64,000 bases of DNA from Actinomycetota bacterium (GTDB lineage: Bacteria; Actinomycetota; Acidimicrobiia; Acidimicrobiales; Microtrichaceae). A program made the position numbers and the translations under genes. The stretch is taken from NCBI GenBank assembly GCA_016870275.1, contig VGBZ01000003.1, positions 1-64,000 on the forward strand, given 5' to 3'. Below, in pieces: positions 9,284 through 64,000 of this stretch. The notes beneath the pieces were generated by a model, which was not told the origin of the DNA, ran no database searches, and saw nothing but the letters and a program-made list of their open reading frames with translations. Within the stretch, counting starts at the first letter, position 1, and every line of letters begins with the position of its first letter.

Positions 9284-10102
9284 TCAGCCGGCGGCGGAGC
9301 GGAGATGGACGACGTCGCCGACCCCGACCGTCCGTCGCACACGTTGATCGTCCTCGATCACGAGTCCGCCACCCGAGTCGATGTCGACTGCTGCACCTAT
9401 CAGCTCGGCACCTGTGAGTTCGACGCGAACCCGACGACCCAGCGTCGCTGAGCGAGCCCGATAGGCGCCGAGGAACTCATCGGTGGGCACCGCCAGCACC
9501 TCGATGAGCGGGAGCCAACGCTGGTCCAGACCGACCAGGAGATCGAGGAGCACGACCTCGCGATCTACCGCACCGCCGAGCACCTCGTCGAGCGAGGTGG
9601 CCGTGGCTGTGAGGTCAGGAGGAATCGCATGCCAGTTGAGGTTGATGCCGACGCCGACCACGGCGAACGGCCCTGCGCCCTCGACGTCGACCATCTCGGT
9701 CAGGATCCCGCCGACCTTGAGGTCCGCACCGTCTGCATCCGGGTTCGGGACCACGAGGTCGTTGGGCCACTTCAGTCGCGTGGTGGCGCACGCATCGACT
9801 GCAGCAACACCGACAGCGGCGGGGACGAGCGTCCATCGATCCTCGGCGATGCCGGCGAGTCCGACGGCGATGCTGACCAACAGCGATGATCCCGGCTCGT
9901 CCTCCCAGATCCGATCCAGCCGACCGCGACCCGCCGTCTGGTGATCGGCGACCAGCACCAGCGGCCGGGCTGGGGCGTGTTCCGGCAGCCGCTCAGCTAG
10001 GAGCCGGGGCACGTCGGCGTTGGTCGATCCGGTCACAGTGACGTGCCGGAGGTCGGCGAACCGGGTGCCAGTGAGTGCTGCTTTGGCGCGATCGAGGTTC
10101 AT
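9284..10102 (-). CDS. birA: biotin--[carboxyl carrier protein] ligase
   Basis: 272 residues, a BirA of the short type without an N-terminal DNA-binding domain. Ligase motifs: VTGSTN near residue 25, HQTAGRGRLDRIW (biotinyl-5'-AMP loop), SSLLVSIAV, LKWPNDLVV, KVGGILTEM, and VVGVGINLNW. It attaches biotin to the lysine of BCCP domains. The gene is divergent from the biotin carboxylase/BCCP gene that encodes its probable substrate, with only 18 bases between start codons. TAGTTT on the minus strand stands exactly six bases before the ATG, so translation is likely leaderless. Confidence 0.94.
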   Translation of the reverse strand: MNLDRAKAALTGTRFADLRHVTVTGSTNADVPRLLAERLPEHAPARPLVLVADHQTAGRGRLDRIWEDEPGSSLLVSIAVGLAGIAEDRWTLVPAAVGVAAVDACATTRLKWPNDLVVPNPDADGADLKVGGILTEMVDVEGAGPFAVVGVGINLNWHAIPPDLTATATSLDEVLGGAVDREVVLLDLLVGLDQRWLPLIEVLAVPTDEFLGAYRARSATLGRRVRVELTGAELIGAAVDIDSGGGLVIEDDQRVRRTVGVGDVVHLRSAAG

Positions 10103-10108
10103 CCGGCG

Positions 10109-10118
10109 AAACTAGTTT
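10109..10118. promoter_or_regulatory. palindromic AAACTAGTTT between birA and the biotin carboxylase gene
   Basis: A perfect 10-bp palindrome in the 18-base divergent gap. On the minus strand it supplies TAGTTT followed by six bases and the birA ATG. On the plus strand TAGTTT is only two bases from the GTG of the carboxylase gene, too close for the same geometry. It may serve as a -10 for birA alone or be part of an operator that links the two genes. Confidence 0.45.
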
Positions 10119-10120
10119 CT

Positions 10121-11899
10121 GTGTTCACCAAGGTACTGATCGCAAACCGTGGAGAGATCGCCGTCCGGGTCATCCGGGCGTGCCGGGAGCTGGGGATCTC
10201 CACCGTGGCCGTTTACTCCGACCTCGACCGGGACGCCCTGCACGTACGACTCGCCGACGAGGCCTATGCGCTTGGCGGTCAGACGGCAGCCGAGAGCTAC
10301 ATCGACCCCAAGAAGCTGCTCGACGTGATCACCCGCTCCGGAGCCCAGGCCGTCCACCCCGGCTACGGCTTCTTCTCGGAGAACTCCGACTTCGCCAAGG
10401 CGATCACCGACCTGGGGGTGGCGTTCATCGGTCCGGGGCCGGCCGCGATCGACGTGATGGGCGACAAGATCTCTGCGCGCCACGCGGCGGAACGGGTGGG
10501 CGTCTCCGGTGTACCGGGGACCACCGACATCCTCACCGACTCCCAGCAGGTCGTCGACTTCGGCAACGAGTTCGGGTTCCCCGTGGCGATCAAGGCCGCG
10601 TACGGCGGTGGTGGTCGCGGCATGAAGGTGGTCAACGCAGCCGATGAGGCCGCCGCGGCGCTCGAGTCCGCCCAGCGCGAAGCGGTTGCGTACTTCGGTC
10701 GTGACGAGTGCTACATGGAGCGGTATCTCACCAAGCCGCGCCACGTCGAGGTGCAGCTCATCGCCGACACCCACGGCAGCTGCGTCTACCTGGGGACGCG
10801 CGACTGCTCCGCGCAGCGACGTCACCAGAAGCTGATCGAGGAGGCGCCTGCGCCGGGGATCCCCAACGAGATCCTCACCGCCATGGGCGAGGCCGCCGTG
10901 AAGGTCGCGCAGGGTTGCGACTACGTCAACGCCGGAACCGTCGAGTTCCTCTACTCCGACGGCGAGTTCTTCTACCTGGAGATGAACACCCGCCTGCAGG
11001 TGGAGCACCCCGTCACCGAGCTGGTGACCGGGATGGACCTGGTGGAGCTCCAGCTCCGCGTCGCCGCCGGCGAGCCACTCCCGTTCAGCCAGGCCGACGT
11101 GACCATCACCGGCCACGCCATCGAGTGTCGGATCAACGCCGAGGACCCGGCCGGTGGGCAGTTCCTGCCATCCCCCGGTCCGATCACCGCGCTCACGGTA
11201 CCGAGCGGATTCGGGACCCGCTGGGACGGCGGCTACGAAGCGGGCGACGAGATCAGCCAGTACTACGACAACCTGGTCGGGAAGCTGTGCGTGTGGGGGC
11301 GCGACCGTGACGTAGCGGTCGCCCGCATGGTCCGGGCGCTCGAGGAGATGCGCGTCGAGGGCATCGCGACCGTCATCGACGCCGATCTGGCGATCCTGCG
11401 CCACCCCGACTTCCAGGCGATCGACCACTCGACCAAGTGGGTCGAGGAGGTCCTCGACCTGAGCGGCGTGGGTGGCGCCGCCACGACGGGCGAGGACACA
11501 GACGCCGAGCCCAAGGTCGAGCGCAACCTCGATGTGGAGGTCAACGGCAGGCGCTTCGCCGTCAAGGTCTTCGTCCCGGAGTCACAGGTGGGGGCCGCCG
11601 CGCCGGCGCCCGGCGCCAAGCCCCGACCCAAGCGTGGCCGGTCGAGCGGCGCAGCGGCGAGCGCCGCGGGCACCGGTCAGATCACCGTCCCGATGCAGGG
11701 CACGATCGTCAAGGTGGTCGTCAAACCCGGCGACGAGGTCGCCGTGGGTGATCCGCTCGTCGTGCTCGAGGCCATGAAGATGGAGAACAACGTCGCCGCC
11801 GACGTGGCCGGCACCGTGGCCGAGGTCCGCGTGTCGACCGGTGACTCCGTGGCCTCCGGTGACATCGTCGTGATGATCACGCCAGCCTCTGGGAGCTAG
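10121..11899 (+). CDS. acetyl-/propionyl-CoA carboxylase alpha subunit (biotin carboxylase fused to BCCP)
   Basis: 592 residues from GTG 10121 (VFTKVLIANRGEIAVRVIRA), matching the length of mycobacterial AccA3-type subunits. The first 450 residues or so are a complete ATP-grasp biotin carboxylase: HPGYGFFSENSDFA, AAYGGGGRGMKVV, ERYLTKPRHVEVQL, RDCSAQRRHQKLIEEAPAP, and LEMNTRLQVEHPVTE. An Ala/Pro/Lys/Arg linker follows. The C-terminal 75 residues are a biotinyl domain with EAMKMEN; the biotinylated lysine is about Lys553. It carboxylates biotin with bicarbonate and ATP for acyl-CoA carboxylases; the beta subunit is not in this window. The annotated frame extends upstream of 10121, but that stretch overlaps birA and is not family-like. 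Confidence 0.95.
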   Translation: MFTKVLIANRGEIAVRVIRACRELGISTVAVYSDLDRDALHVRLADEAYALGGQTAAESYIDPKKLLDVITRSGAQAVHPGYGFFSENSDFAKAITDLGVAFIGPGPAAIDVMGDKISARHAAERVGVSGVPGTTDILTDSQQVVDFGNEFGFPVAIKAAYGGGGRGMKVVNAADEAAAALESAQREAVAYFGRDECYMERYLTKPRHVEVQLIADTHGSCVYLGTRDCSAQRRHQKLIEEAPAPGIPNEILTAMGEAAVKVAQGCDYVNAGTVEFLYSDGEFFYLEMNTRLQVEHPVTELVTGMDLVELQLRVAAGEPLPFSQADVTITGHAIECRINAEDPAGGQFLPSPGPITALTVPSGFGTRWDGGYEAGDEISQYYDNLVGKLCVWGRDRDVAVARMVRALEEMRVEGIATVIDADLAILRHPDFQAIDHSTKWVEEVLDLSGVGGAATTGEDTDAEPKVERNLDVEVNGRRFAVKVFVPESQVGAAAPAPGAKPRPKRGRSSGAAASAAGTGQITVPMQGTIVKVVVKPGDEVAVGDPLVVLEAMKMENNVAADVAGTVAEVRVSTGDSVASGDIVVMITPASGS

Positions 11900-58226: not shown

Positions 58227-59468
58227 TCAGTCGTCGGCGAGCAGCGAGCGGGCCACCGCAGAGATCTGGATCTCGTCGGTCCCGGCGTAGATCTGGAGGA
58301 CCTTGGCGTCGCGAGCGAGTTGCTCCACCTCGTACTCAGCCATGTAGCCGTTCCCTCCGAAGAGTTGCACCGCCTCGAGCGCCACTTCGGTGGCGGCCTG
58401 AGCGGCGTACAATTTGGCGGCGGAGGCCTCGGCGTAACCCATGCCGACGCCAGCGGCGGTCATCTCGATGTGGCGGAACACCAGGTTCTGCAGGTTGATC
58501 CGAGCCACCTCCATCTTGGCGAGCTTGAGCTGGATCAGCTGGAACTGGCCGATCGGCTGGCCGAACTGCACGCGGTCCTTGGAGTATTCAATGGACAGCT
58601 CGAGGCAGCGGTCGACGATGCCGAGCGCCATGGCGGCCACGCCGGCCCGCTCCATGGAGAACGTCGCCTTGGACGCCTCACGGCCACCACGGCCGCGATA
58701 GGCATCGAGGGACTCACCGAGGAGGCGGTCCGACCCGACTCGCACGTCGGTCAGGAACAGCTGACCCGTGGGCGATGAATGAATGCCCATCTTGCGGAGC
58801 GGCTTGGACTGCTCGAGGCCCGCCATACCGGAGTCCAGGACGAACTGCACGATCGTTCGCTCCTCGGGCGGGTTGCCCTCGTCGAGCTTGCAGATGAACA
58901 CGATCGTGTCTGCGTGCGGCCCATTGGTGATGAACGTCTTGGATCCGTTCAGCACGAACTCGTCCCCGTCGATGCGGGCCGTGGACGTCATTCCACCGAA
59001 GGCATCGGATCCCGAGTTGGGCTCGGTGATCGCCCACGATCCGACCTTGTCCATGGTGAGCAGGTCGAGCGCCCACCGTTCCTTCTGAGCGATCGTCCCC
59101 TTGGACATGATCGCCGAGGAGGTCAGACCCATCGACACGCCCATGGCGGTCACCATCCCGGGACACACCCGGCACAGCTCGATGATCGGGATCATCGTGA
59201 AGGCAATCGCATCGGCGTTGGCACTCCGCTCGCCGGAGTCGACCTCGAGCGCCTCACCGTTCTCGGCGGCCCGCTCCCGCTCGATGCGCCGTTTGAAGCT
59301 CTCGCGCTGCATGGCGTCCATGCCGAACGTCGAGAACAGCTTGCGGAGGAGGTCGTAGGGCGGCATGTCGCCGAACTCGAGTTCATCACGGTGTGGACGG
59401 ATCTCGCGATCGACGAAATCCCGGACCGCCGTGCGGACCATCTCCTGTTCCTCGGACCACTGGAACAC
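58227..59468 (-). CDS. acyl-CoA dehydrogenase
   Basis: 413 residues. FAD and substrate motifs: SWAITEPNSGSDAFGGM (ACAD signature 1), LNGSKTFITNGPHAD, and QLFGGNGYMAEYEVEQLARD with KVLQIYAGTDEIQ (signature 2). The glutamate of the medium-chain YEGT motif is Ala (YAGT), so the catalytic base should come from helix G as in isovaleryl- and long-chain enzymes. A loop of about 30 residues (RIERERAAENGEALEVDSGE) near residue 60 is longer than usual. It oxidises acyl-CoA at alpha-beta and passes electrons to ETF. GTG start with GGAGG eight bases upstream. Confidence 0.93.
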   Translation of the reverse strand: MFQWSEEQEMVRTAVRDFVDREIRPHRDELEFGDMPPYDLLRKLFSTFGMDAMQRESFKRRIERERAAENGEALEVDSGERSANADAIAFTMIPIIELCRVCPGMVTAMGVSMGLTSSAIMSKGTIAQKERWALDLLTMDKVGSWAITEPNSGSDAFGGMTSTARIDGDEFVLNGSKTFITNGPHADTIVFICKLDEGNPPEERTIVQFVLDSGMAGLEQSKPLRKMGIHSSPTGQLFLTDVRVGSDRLLGESLDAYRGRGGREASKATFSMERAGVAAMALGIVDRCLELSIEYSKDRVQFGQPIGQFQLIQLKLAKMEVARINLQNLVFRHIEMTAAGVGMGYAEASAAKLYAAQAATEVALEAVQLFGGNGYMAEYEVEQLARDAKVLQIYAGTDEIQISAVARSLLADD

Positions 59469-59533
59469 TGCTCGACCTCCCGGGGTCGTCCGGCGGGGGC
59501 GATCCGCCGCCCTCTGCTGAGGCTTTCAGTCTG

Positions 59534-60301
59534 TCACCCCGACGGCGACAGCGGCCCATCGGTCCCGATCCACGGTGCCACCTCGCCCCACCAGCCCAAC
59601 TCGGCCGGCAGCACCGTCGAGGCGCGGTACGTCGCCACGTAGACCGGATCCTGGACCAGACCGTGCAGGAGCAGCATCAGGGTCCAACGGCCGTCGATCG
59701 ATCCGCCGTCCGCGATCGCCTCGAGCGCCGAGATCTCGCCGATTCGCATGCGGAGGTAGTTGCGGAAGGTCATCGACACCGCCAACTCAGGGGCATCCGC
59801 CGCCGGCGAACCCGGCTCCGGTGTGTCCCAGTCCTCGACGAGGTACCCCGTCCGCACGCAGTTGCGGTAGATGAACTCGGCCCGCTGCACTCCCGTCGGC
59901 GAGCCGGTCAACTCGAAACGCAGGCGGAGATCGGCATCAGGCACCTGCTCCACTCCGGAGAACCCCGGATCCTCGAGGTCGTCCACCATCGGGAGCGGAT
60001 GGATCTCGGCACCGATTCGGAGCCCGGTGTTCCCGATGCGCTCCGGTGACGCCACGTCACTCGGACACGGCTCGAGCACATCACCTTGACGCACCAACGC
60101 CCACGGTCCCGGGCGATCGTCGAGCTCCCACTCCTCGAGGCGGCCGACGGCGAAGCGCTGGTGGTGGTGCGTCACGGTCCCGTCGGGCGCCACGGCGTCG
60201 TGGTGGACCACGCCCGTGGCGTAACCGGGTGGGACGGGCGGCGCCGTCGCCGCCGGAGCCGCCGCTGCCGACTGCTCCCGGTAGCGGGCGATCAGCCCCA
60301 C
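59534..60301 (-). CDS. protein of unknown function downstream of lipBA
   Basis: 255 residues from GTG 60301, overlapping the lipBA stop by 10 nt; the longer frame is a shadow of lipBA. An Ala/Pro head (AAAAPAATAPPVPPG) is followed by beta-rich sequence (GVVHHDAVAPDGTVTHHHQR, LRLRFELTGSPTGVQR). A C-terminal helix region (RIGEISALEAIADGGSIDGR) is vaguely like SCP2 lipid-binding domains; that resemblance is weak. Translation coupled to lipoate synthesis suggests some link to the 2-oxoacid dehydrogenase unit, but no function can be given. Confidence 0.65.
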   Translation of the reverse strand: MGLIARYREQSAAAAPAATAPPVPPGYATGVVHHDAVAPDGTVTHHHQRFAVGRLEEWELDDRPGPWALVRQGDVLEPCPSDVASPERIGNTGLRIGAEIHPLPMVDDLEDPGFSGVEQVPDADLRLRFELTGSPTGVQRAEFIYRNCVRTGYLVEDWDTPEPGSPAADAPELAVSMTFRNYLRMRIGEISALEAIADGGSIDGRWTLMLLLHGLVQDPVYVATYRASTVLPAELGWWGEVAPWIGTDGPLSPSG

Positions 60302-62019
60302 GCCGGCACCCGGTGACGGGCCTCGAGTGCCCTCAGGTACGACGACCGCGCGTGGTGACTCGACCGTGTGAACGGTGAGGCCTCGACGTGGCGGAGACCG
60401 ACGCTCCGACCGAACTCGACGAGCGCCTCGAACTCCTCCGGTCGCCACCACCGGGCCACCGGGAGGTGACGGGCGGTCGGGCGCAGGTACTGGCCGATCG
60501 TCACGACCTCCACACCCACCGCTGCGAGATCGCACATCGTGGCGTGCACCTCGTCGGTGCGCTCACCCATCCCGACGATCAGACCCGACTTGACCACCAC
60601 TCCGGTCTCCGCCGCCCGGCCGAGCACCGTCAGCGAGCGGGCGTAACCCGCCGAGGGTCGCACAGCCCGCTGCAGTCGCGGCACCGTCTCCACGTTGTGG
60701 TTCAACACCTCCGGCCCGGCGGCGAGCACCGTCTCGAGCGCCGACGCACTGCCCCGGAGATCAGAGATGAGCACCTCGACACTGCACTCCGGAGCGAGGG
60801 ACCCGATCGCCGCCACGGTTCGAGCCACGTGGTCGGCGCCACCATCGACGAGATCGTCCCGAGCGACCATCGTGAGCACTGCGTGGTCGAGTCCCATGCG
60901 CTCGACCGCAGCGGCGACACGATCGGGTTCACCGGCGTCGAGTCCACCCGGGTGCCTCGTATCGACCAGACAGAACCCACAGGCACGGGTGCATCGCTCG
61001 CCGCAGAGCATGAACGTCGCCGTGCCCTCGGACCAGCACTCCGACAGGTTGGGGCAACCCGCCTCCTCACAGACGGTGACGAGATCGAGATCCCCGATCG
61101 TTCGCTTGACGCTGAGCACGTTGGGGTCGTGCCGCCATCGGGCCCGCATCCAGTCGGGCTTGGGGCCCATCGCCCCGTCACCGACCGCCACGCCGGCAGC
61201 CTCGAGACGACCACGGAGTCGCACCGAGACACCGGCAGGTTCGTTCCGACCGGCACCGGGATCAGGCGCTCCGAATCTGGAGAAGTCCGACAGATCCGCA
61301 CCGTCGGGATCGTGTCGCCACGCCACATCAGCCCGCTCGACCGCCATCGGCTCCCACGCCGCAGCGAACCGATCGACGAACTCCTCGGCCACCTCCCTCA
61401 GGTCGACCGCAGCCCCCTCGGCCGCCAACGACGTGACGCCATGCTCACTGATGCCACAGGGAACGATCGAATCGAAGTGCGACATGTCCGGGTCGACGTT
61501 GAGCGCCACCCCGTGCAACGAGCGCCCGCCGACGATCCGGACCCCGATTGCGGCGACCTTTCTGGGCCGGGAGCCGTCGGGGTCGATCCAGACACCCGGG
61601 TAACCGTCGAGCCGTCCGACCGGATCGATCCCGAGGGCACGGACGACGTCGATCAGCACACCCTCGAGCAGGCGCACGTGGGCGGGGGTGTCGGGCAGAT
61701 CGCCGGAGCCCTTTCCCGGCAGTCCGAGCAGCGGGTAGGCCACGAGTTGCCCCGGCCCGTGGTAGGTCACGTCGCCGCCGCGATCGACGTCGAGCACGTC
61801 GAACTTCGGCGTGTCCCGGTCGACGAGCAGGTGAGCCGGATTCGTCTGCCGCCCGAGCGTCAACGTCGGAGGATGCTCGAGCAGGAGGAGGTGGTCATCT
61901 GGACGACCGCCCGCTTCGGCCACGACGAGGGCCTGCCGGTGGAGCGCCCGCTGGAGCGACCACGCCTCCCGATACGCAACGGTTCCGAGCCACCGCACCC
62001 GGAGCGTGGCGTCGGTCAT
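60292..62019 (-). CDS. lipB-lipA: fused octanoyltransferase - lipoyl synthase (LipB-LipA)
   Basis: 575 residues in one uninterrupted frame. Residues about 1-235 are LipB: GGDVTYHGPGQLVAYPLLGL, the catalytic lysine in RKVAAIGVRI, HGVALNV and the catalytic Cys188 in IVPCGISEHG. A linker of about 45 residues follows. Residues about 285-575 are LipA: auxiliary-cluster cysteines 317, 322 and 328 (CEEAGCPNLSEC), the radical-SAM triplet Cys343, 347 and 350 (CTRACGFC), HNVETVPRLQRAVRP, and the C-terminal RSS motif as TRSSHHARSSY. The first half moves octanoyl from ACP to the E2 lysine; the second inserts two sulfurs. The ATG overlaps the E2 stop by 4 nt, so the enzyme is made with its substrate. Confidence 0.94.
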   Translation of the reverse strand: MTDATLRVRWLGTVAYREAWSLQRALHRQALVVAEAGGRPDDHLLLLEHPPTLTLGRQTNPAHLLVDRDTPKFDVLDVDRGGDVTYHGPGQLVAYPLLGLPGKGSGDLPDTPAHVRLLEGVLIDVVRALGIDPVGRLDGYPGVWIDPDGSRPRKVAAIGVRIVGGRSLHGVALNVDPDMSHFDSIVPCGISEHGVTSLAAEGAAVDLREVAEEFVDRFAAAWEPMAVERADVAWRHDPDGADLSDFSRFGAPDPGAGRNEPAGVSVRLRGRLEAAGVAVGDGAMGPKPDWMRARWRHDPNVLSVKRTIGDLDLVTVCEEAGCPNLSECWSEGTATFMLCGERCTRACGFCLVDTRHPGGLDAGEPDRVAAAVERMGLDHAVLTMVARDDLVDGGADHVARTVAAIGSLAPECSVEVLISDLRGSASALETVLAAGPEVLNHNVETVPRLQRAVRPSAGYARSLTVLGRAAETGVVVKSGLIVGMGERTDEVHATMCDLAAVGVEVVTIGQYLRPTARHLPVARWWRPEEFEALVEFGRSVGLRHVEASPFTRSSHHARSSYLRALEARHRVPAWG

Positions 62020-63410
62020 CCGAGCTCTGCCGCCCAGTCCCGGGTCTCGATGATCTCCCGCACCTTCGCCAGGAACGCCGCAGCGTACGCACCATCGAAC
62101 GCCCGGTGGTCCCAGGCGAGCGTGAGGTTCCCGACGGAGTGAACAGCAATCGCCTCCCCGCCGGCGCCATCGTCGACGACGACGGGGCGACGGCGCACAC
62201 CGTCGGTGGACAGGATCGCCACCTGCGGCTGGTTGATGATCGGGATCACGACCTCGGTGCCGTAACTGCCCGCATTGGAGATCGTGAACGTCCCTCCAGC
62301 GAGCTCGTCCGGGCCGAGCTGCCTGGACCGGGCCCGGTCAGCGAGGTCACGAATGTCGGCGGCAATGGCGCGGAGCCTCTGCTCGTGAGCGTTGCGGACC
62401 ACCGGAGCGAGGAGACCCTCGAAGTCGAGGTCGACAGCGATGGCCAGGTGGACCTCGTTGTGAATGACCAGCGACGCTCCGTCCACAGCGGCATTCATGC
62501 GGGGGAACTCGTGCAGCGCATCGATCACCGCCCGAGCCACGAACGGCAGGTACGTGAGCGAGAACCCCTCCGTGGCCCGGAACTCCTCGGCCGCAACGGA
62601 GCGGACCCGGTCGACCCCCTCATAGTCGACCTCGACGATCGTCACGGCATGTGGCGCAATCGCCTTGGAGGCGACCATGTGTTCGCCGGTGAGACGACGG
62701 ATCTTGTTGAGCTCCACGACCCGGTCGCCGGAGCCGTGGTGCATCGGTGCGGCATCGACCGCCGCCCGCGCCGGTGCTGGTGCTGCTGGTGCTGCCGGCG
62801 CTGTTGCTGCCGGCACTGTTGCTGCCGGCACTGTTGCTGCGTCAATCGCATCGAAGACGTCTTCGCGTGTAATCCGCCCGCCGACACCGGTACCGGTGAT
62901 CCGGGACACGTCGAGGCCGTTCTCGGCGATCAGACGTCGGACGAGTGGTGAGAGCACCTGCCCCGACCCAGCAGGCTCGGCCACCGGCGCAGCCTGGACC
63001 ACCGGCGCAGCCTCGACCACCGGCGCAGCCTCGACCACCGGCGCCGCCTCAACCACCGGCGCCGCCCCGACCACCGGCGCCGCCTGGACCACCGGCGCAG
63101 CCTCGACCACCGGCGCAGCCTCGACCACCGGCGCAGCCTCGACCACCGGCGCCGCCCCGACCACCGGCGCCGCCCCGCTCCCGCCGAGCACAGCGAGCAA
63201 CGTGCCCACGTCGACGGTGTCACCCTCGGCCACGAGAATCTCAGTCAGGACGCCACCGGCTGGAGCGGGCACCTCCGTGTCGACCTTGTCGGTGGAGACC
63301 TCGAACAGCGGCTCGTCCTCGGTGATCGTCTCGCCGACCGCCTTGAACCAACGGGTGATCGTTCCCTCGGTGACTGACTCACCGAGTTGCGGCATCACGA
63401 TGTCGGTCAT
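62016..63410 (-). CDS. sucB: 2-oxoacid dehydrogenase E2 (dihydrolipoamide acyltransferase, SucB-like)
   Basis: 464 residues. One lipoyl domain at 1-75 with Lys42 in STDKVDTEV. An Ala/Pro/Val linker of hexapeptide repeats spans about 78-145. The E3/E1-binding domain is at about 150-187 (LSPLVRRLIAENGLDVSRIT, GGRITREDVFDAI). A second Ala/Pro linker follows. The catalytic CAT domain is at about 230-464, with His435 and Asp439 in WDHRAFDGAYA. It transfers succinyl, acetyl or branched acyl groups to CoA; which one is not decided by the sequence, and in actinobacteria this gene order is often annotated sucB. ATG 63410 has AGGAGG four bases upstream. It lies between lpd and lipBA. Confidence 0.93.
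   Translation of the reverse strand: MTDIVMPQLGESVTEGTITRWFKAVGETITEDEPLFEVSTDKVDTEVPAPAGGVLTEILVAEGDTVDVGTLLAVLGGSGAAPVVGAAPVVEAAPVVEAAPVVEAAPVVQAAPVVGAAPVVEAAPVVEAAPVVEAAPVVQAAPVAEPAGSGQVLSPLVRRLIAENGLDVSRITGTGVGGRITREDVFDAIDAATVPAATVPAATAPAAPAAPAPARAAVDAAPMHHGSGDRVVELNKIRRLTGEHMVASKAIAPHAVTIVEVDYEGVDRVRSVAAEEFRATEGFSLTYLPFVARAVIDALHEFPRMNAAVDGASLVIHNEVHLAIAVDLDFEGLLAPVVRNAHEQRLRAIAADIRDLADRARSRQLGPDELAGGTFTISNAGSYGTEVVIPIINQPQVAILSTDGVRRRPVVVDDGAGGEAIAVHSVGNLTLAWDHRAFDGAYAAAFLAKVREIIETRDWAAELG
62981..63178 (-). repeat. 18-bp tandem repeat (APVVEA) with a 90-bp higher-order duplication
   Basis: Eleven hexapeptide units in the E2 linker. The order of the variable residue is G,E,E,E,Q,G,E,E,E,Q, that is, a five-unit block present twice. 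The same non-repeat landmark (cctggacc) occurs at 62993 and 63083, exactly 90 bp apart. Confidence 0.95.
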
Positions 63411-63436
63411 GGGTCCTCCTGGTTTCCGATGGAGTC

Positions 63437-63442
63437 AGCCTA
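63437..63442 (-). promoter_or_regulatory. -10 box upstream of the E2 gene
   Basis: TAGGCT in the 63-base gap after lpd. Initiation would give a leader of about 20 nt with AGGAGG before ATG 63410. Confidence 0.45.
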
Positions 63443-63473
63443 CGTCGCTGCCGGGAGCCGACGGGACGGTCGC

Positions 63474-64000
63474 TCAGCCGTGGAGTGAGCGTCCGGTCAG
63501 GGACAGCACCGTCTCACCGAACAACTCGCTCAGCGACGGATGGGGTTGGATGAACGCCGCCACCTCGTCCACGGTGGCCTCCCAGTTGACTGCGAGGTAG
63601 CCGCCGGAGAGTTGCTCGGTGACCCACGGTCCGACCATGTGCACGCCGAGAATCCGACCGGCTCGACCGTCGGCGTCACGTTCGGCGATCACCTTCACGA
63701 GACCCTCGGTCTCTCCGACGATCATCGCCCGACTGTTGGCGGCGAACCGGTGCTTGGAGGTCATCACCTCGTAACCGAGCTCACGGGCCTGCGTCTCGGA
63801 GTAGCCGGCGAAGGCGACCTCGGGATTGCAGTAGATGGCCCATGGAACGAAGTCGTCGTCGACCGGAGGAACGTCCTCCCCGAGCACGCGCCGCACCACG
63901 GCGATGGCCTCGGCGAAGGCCACGTGGGCGAGCTGGGGCGAGTCGATCACGTCACCGATCGCGTAGACGTCCTCGGCGTGGGTCCGGTAGTCCTCATCAA
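63474..64000 (-). CDS. lpd: dihydrolipoamide dehydrogenase, C-terminal part (5' end outside window)
   Basis: The frame is open to the window edge and reads DEDYRTHAEDVYAIGDVIDS, the second FAD-binding motif. Then PWAIYCNPEVAFAGYSETQA and the C-terminal dimer domain with the active-site HxHPSLSE (IQPHPSLSELFGETVLSL) follow. It keeps the histidine-glutamate pair that the LpdA homologue at 27684 lacks, so this is the true E3 that reoxidises lipoamide of the adjacent E2. The annotated frame start inside the window (GTG 63950) is only an internal codon. Confidence 0.95.
   Translation of the reverse strand, partial: DEDYRTHAEDVYAIGDVIDSPQLAHVAFAEAIAVVRRVLGEDVPPVDDDFVPWAIYCNPEVAFAGYSETQARELGYEVMTSKHRFAANSRAMIVGETEGLVKVIAERDADGRAGRILGVHMVGPWVTEQLSGGYLAVNWEATVDEVAAFIQPHPSLSELFGETVLSLTGRSLHG

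Follow-up and report, generated by a model that had tools for sequence, protein, structure and literature searches.

A single gene in the window (the whole stretch of 64,000 nucleotides that was analysed), here called lipBA, very probably encodes a bifunctional octanoyltransferase/lipoyl synthase, as judged from its sequence, and would have arisen once, through the loss of a stop codon in an E2-lipB-lipA operon. The enzymes and their chemistry are already known, and lipBA is a class-wide conserved fusion of these two well-known enzymes. The features of the gene and its neighbors are collected in Table 1.

Table 1. Features of lipBA and the adjoining genes (positions are those of the window).
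Feature	Position	Strand	Basis
lipBA, LipB/LipA fusion, 575 aa	60292..62019	-	Single frame; both family models above cut-off; fused in 98 fetched loci
LipB domain, ~residues 1-225, with Lys154 and Cys188	61345..62019	-	PRK14345 and TIGR00214 above cut-off; 1w66 match; residues invariant
Inter-domain linker, ~residues 226-286	61162..61344	-	Conservation in class alignment; codon-wise evolution
Linker motif DLxxFSR (here DLSDFSR, 242-248)	lipBA linker	-	In 59/101 fused linkers
Linker motif RLxxAGV (here RLEAAGV, 271-277)	lipBA linker	-	In 66/101 fused linkers
LipA domain (~287-567), C-terminal tail and stop; Cys317/322/328, Cys343/347/350, Arg-Ser-Ser 552-554	60292..61161	-	PRK05481 and TIGR00510 above cut-off; 5exi/5exk match; residues conserved
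E2 of a 2-oxoacid dehydrogenase: one lipoyl domain, E3-binding domain, acyltransferase core	62016..63410	-	Upstream of lipBA
lpd, 3' part (dihydrolipoyl dehydrogenase), runs off the window	63474..63998	-	Upstream of E2
Frame downstream of lipBA	59534-60376		No Pfam match

The gene starts with an ATG and runs through 575 uninterrupted codons on the minus strand; a plus-strand reading of the same interval was rejected as a gene, the original prediction having given no strand. The claim that LipB and LipA share one stop-free frame was borne out by the family models, each half scoring above its cut-offs. For LipB, the NCBIfam model PRK14345 gave 195.4 bits against a cut-off of 155 (residues 3-225), and TIGR00214 gave 136.1 bits against 83.55. 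For LipA, the corresponding scores were 366.5 bits against 203 for the NCBIfam model PRK05481 (residues 287-567) and 313.7 bits against 310.25 for TIGR00510. Pfam places LplA-B_cat at residues 16-218 and Radical_SAM at 339-493, and in structure comparisons the LipB half was 47% identical to LipB of Mycobacterium tuberculosis (1w66), while the LipA half was 46-50% identical to the lipoyl synthase of the same organism (5exi/5exk).

The catalytic residues had been named correctly. The Cys/Lys dyad of LipB is present as Lys154 and Cys188, the latter within the PCG motif Pro187-Cys188-Gly189, and LipA possesses both the CX4CX5C motif of the auxiliary cluster (Cys317/322/328) and the CX3CX2C motif of radical-SAM enzymes (Cys343/347/350). 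Cys188, Lys154, and both cysteine triads are invariant in all 99 aligned fused rows, and the C-terminal Arg-Ser-Ser of LipA is close to it (Arg552 in 96 of 99 rows, Ser553 and Ser554 in 95), with nearly all exceptions being gaps at truncated ends. Residue 555, just after this motif, is a His in the window protein and 14 of the 99 rows and a Tyr in 78. LipB transfers octanoate from octanoyl-ACP to the lysine of a lipoyl domain by way of a cysteine thioester, and LipA then supplies two sulfurs from its auxiliary cluster. Since the catalytic residues are conserved, the same chemistry can be ascribed to lipBA: its LipB domain would load octanoate from octanoyl-ACP onto Cys188 as a thioester, with Lys154 as partner, and pass it to the lipoyl-domain lysine, whereupon the radical-SAM domain of LipA would insert two auxiliary-cluster sulfurs into the octanoyl-lysine.

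The fusion is by no means peculiar to the window. Judged on stop-to-stop frames, an uninterrupted frame with both domains in the order LipB-LipA was found in 98 fetched loci, which correspond to about 96 genomes (L190 and L198 are the same place, and L032 and L112 look identical). Matches to lipBA at an E value of 0.001 or better occurred in 57 of 61 near relatives and in 231 of the 247 genomes sampled from the class, counting a weak match to another radical-SAM protein in G019. The matches listed for class genomes span both domains free of stops, apart from a few with a single stop, in which the alignment extends past the LipA end. Moreover, when class genomes with the match in pieces were searched again, most of those fetched proved to have one frame, and this was true also of genomes of about 1 Mb (family code f44). 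Within the class, then, lipBA is the rule and a fixed trait of nearly all members. The class itself is probably Acidimicrobiia, as the named fused loci are labeled Acidimicrobiaceae, Acidimicrobiales, or only Actinomycetota/Actinomycetes. Outside the class, lipB and lipA are separate and often adjacent, both in the examined genomes of the phylum's other classes and in the loci fetched from other phyla, although this survey is a sample and rare fusions could occur elsewhere. The statement that the two are normally separate genes holds for these outside genomes and fails within the class, where the fusion prevails.

A handful of class genomes depart from this pattern. Eight with a completeness of at least 90% (G019, G116, G120, G154, G199, G201, G224, and G248) possess no LipBA, and no LipA over the family cut-off was found in class genomes without a LipBA match; all eight are drafts, and the absence may represent either an assembly gap or a true loss of lipoate synthesis. 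In G262, LipB and LipA occupy overlapping frames, with the LipB frame running on into the LipA start and the E2 gene also broken across frames, and this split looks like the product of indel errors. G258 carries LipBA in pieces at contig ends. G110 possesses a fused copy plus a separate lipB/lipA pair that is probably foreign sequence, its LipA falling outside the fused group. Several candidate fusions were also rejected. A 604-aa open frame was reported for G324, a genome of another class, as a possible second independent fusion, and the fetched DNA contained two genes with a stop between them. In L147, L148, L151, and L152, the LipB and LipA matches lie in different overlapping frames and represent chance overlaps.

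The fusion apparently had a single origin. Trees were built for LipA (138 rows) and LipB (73 rows), and in each of them all fused rows fell on one side of one branch, with SH-aLRT supports of 94 and 88, respectively, both below the threshold of 95 and both from trees built on quick searches. Each tree requires only one change between fused and separate. One outgroup class has adjacent genes in the order E2, lipB, lipA. With lipB and lipA side by side and in that order in outgroups, one stop loss would be enough to join them. In the ancestor of the actinobacterial class, the lipB stop would have been lost in such an operon, and the fused gene would subsequently have been kept through vertical descent.

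The operon setting remains visible in the window. The predicted ATGA overlap is present, with the lipBA ATG (62019-62017) overlapping the E2 stop (62018-62016), and the end of lpd lies nearby, upstream of E2, as had been noted. The coupling to E2 is also general: of 66 fused loci, 60 have an E2 match upstream. Between its lipoyl and E3-binding domains, the E2 protein has a linker with 11 seemingly perfect six-residue repeats (AAPVVx) in a row. Of the same 66 loci, 18 have a relative of the downstream minus-strand frame alongside, and these 18 all belong to the window's own family. A scan of 59300-64000 for promoters and terminators found none and is uninformative here.

Elsewhere in the genome, one GcvH is encoded on another contig. 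Biotin_lipoyl has just one further match, in a carboxylase at 10043-11899 of the window, where it marks the biotin carrier domain (EAMKM). The substrates of lipBA are probably GcvH and the neighboring E2, which has a single lipoyl domain. Since GcvH is probably also served, a role dedicated purely to E2 is unlikely. The protein has only one full match in the genome, lipBA itself, and neither a second LipA nor a second LipB turned up there. The description of the locus as a complete lipoylation module is sound as regards the coupling to E2, but it was overstated, given that GcvH, which needs the same cofactor, is encoded on another contig and that two further proteins with LplA/LipB-type domains are encoded elsewhere in the genome. 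The first is a 373-aa LplA-like protein (L133:1456-2577, plus strand) that scores 56 bits with the LplAB model against a cut-off of 550 and has a weak LplB match at its C-terminus; its neighbors are two frames, one resembling a short-chain dehydrogenase and the other an AMP ligase. The second is a 224-aa protein (L134:1309-1983, minus strand) whose LplA/LipB-type domain gives a weak match to ligase models, and the adjoining frame (L134:695-1270, minus strand) looks MraZ-like by eye.

Why the class has kept the fusion can be explained in more than one way. The benefit is inferred to be equal dosage of the two enzymes and their co-localization near the E2 complex. One account, regarded as somewhat probable, is that the tether only fixes a 1:1 dosage of two enzymes which work at one common complex in any case, while motifs in the linker stabilize folding. 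Such an origin is in keeping with the conserved gene order of the outgroups, where a single lost stop suffices, and LipA and LipB of Escherichia coli reportedly co-purify with the dehydrogenases (Hassan and Cronan 2011). Retention across the class, down to genomes of about 1 Mb, suggests something more than neutral drift, though without proof. Against the reading as one bifunctional chain stand GTG/ATG codons in the linker at residues 266 and 284, from which a LipA chain might be translated on its own.

Another possibility is processive assembly, the handling of one lipoyl domain without release that the original prediction raised; here the linker would fix the geometry of the two domains, and a single docked lipoyl domain would receive first its octanoyl group and then the sulfurs before it leaves. 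Recurrent motifs in the linker speak for this idea. In the class alignment, the linker contains two such stretches, typically DLxPFSRGEGPG and VRLLGRLAEAGV, and in searches with the patterns DLx(x)F[ST][RK] and RLxxAG[VIA], the first was found in 59 of 101 fused linkers versus 1 of 105 standalone LipA/LipB frames (that one inside a LipB domain), and the second in 66 of 101 versus none of 105. AlphaFold2 predictions were likewise suggestive: the window protein, modeled with the class alignment, gave a mean pLDDT of 90.9 and a pTM of 0.92, and a relative of 42% identity, placed first in its own alignment, gave 89.5 and 0.89. By our own estimate, two such domains on a free tether would be expected to yield a pTM nearer 0.5, and the high values therefore imply that LipB and LipA are held in a defined, if modeled, arrangement. 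In the window protein, the second motif is predicted as a helix (266-274), which by our guess rests against LipA or sets how the domains are placed, while residues 244-252 have pLDDT values below 50. None of the solved structures among the matches listed spans both domains. These points, along with the coupling to E2, are weighed against a linker that varies from 36 to 92 residues across 66 loci and in many members lacks one or both motifs (e.g., L042, L043, and L044). In addition, octanoate is by then attached to the lipoyl domain, leaving no small free intermediate to channel, and GcvH probably has to be served too. Processive assembly is accordingly a rather unlikely reason for the retention of the fusion.

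It is also conceivable that one domain has lost its catalytic activity and survives as a scaffold. Nothing speaks for this beyond the His, rather than the commoner Tyr, after the Arg-Ser-Ser of LipA. As the catalytic residues are invariant in both domains and the genome yielded no further LipA or LipB, it is very improbable. Finally, an assembly or sequencing error that joined two genes can be dismissed, its likelihood being negligible: the source genome is a 137-contig draft, yet no support for an error was found, and it is excluded by the 98 unbroken loci, the failure to find a further LipA or LipB in the genome, and the codon-wise evolution of the linker. On this last point, the linker was checked for a missed frameshift or stop and none was seen; frames aligned with the same-genus locus L002 stay open, gaps are whole codons, and differences number 12, 15, and 36 at codon positions 1, 2, and 3. 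Within the genus, the linker evolves as coding DNA. Close relatives, which would have carried two genes had the assembly been wrong, are fused as well.

No prior description of a LipB-LipA fusion was found in the literature that could be searched. The nearest curated relative is NF053790 (LplA_LipA_fuse, bifunctional lipoate--protein ligase/lipoyl synthase), which by its name likewise joins a lipoate-attachment enzyme to LipA and shows that one fusion of this general kind was already known to curators. Its partner is named as the ligase LplA, unlike the LipB of lipBA, and the window protein failed the whole-protein test, matching through its LipA half only (323 bits against a cut-off of 800). 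Another bacterial arrangement for lipoate assembly, LipS1/LipS2 with sLpl(AB), uses a lipoyl synthase different from that of lipBA (PMC10332631); in that paper, fusion and fused refer to LplA/LplB units rather than to LipB-LipA, and the string "Acidimicrobi" is absent. lipBA is a fusion, natural and class-wide, of two enzymes that act one after the other in the de novo assembly of lipoate. It provides a shared derived trait for its class and one polypeptide in which an octanoylated lipoyl domain could be trapped on its way from one active site to the other, and it bears on the question of on-site assembly of lipoate at the dehydrogenase, reportedly seen with LipA and LipB of E. coli (Hassan and Cronan 2011). 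It also serves as a caution that naming proteins by one domain hides the second. Compared with the separate LipB and LipA of the de novo pathway, as in E. coli and M. tuberculosis, lipBA is alike in domain extents and catalytic residues, whereas it differs in being one polypeptide with a linker, often bearing motifs not seen in the standalone proteins.
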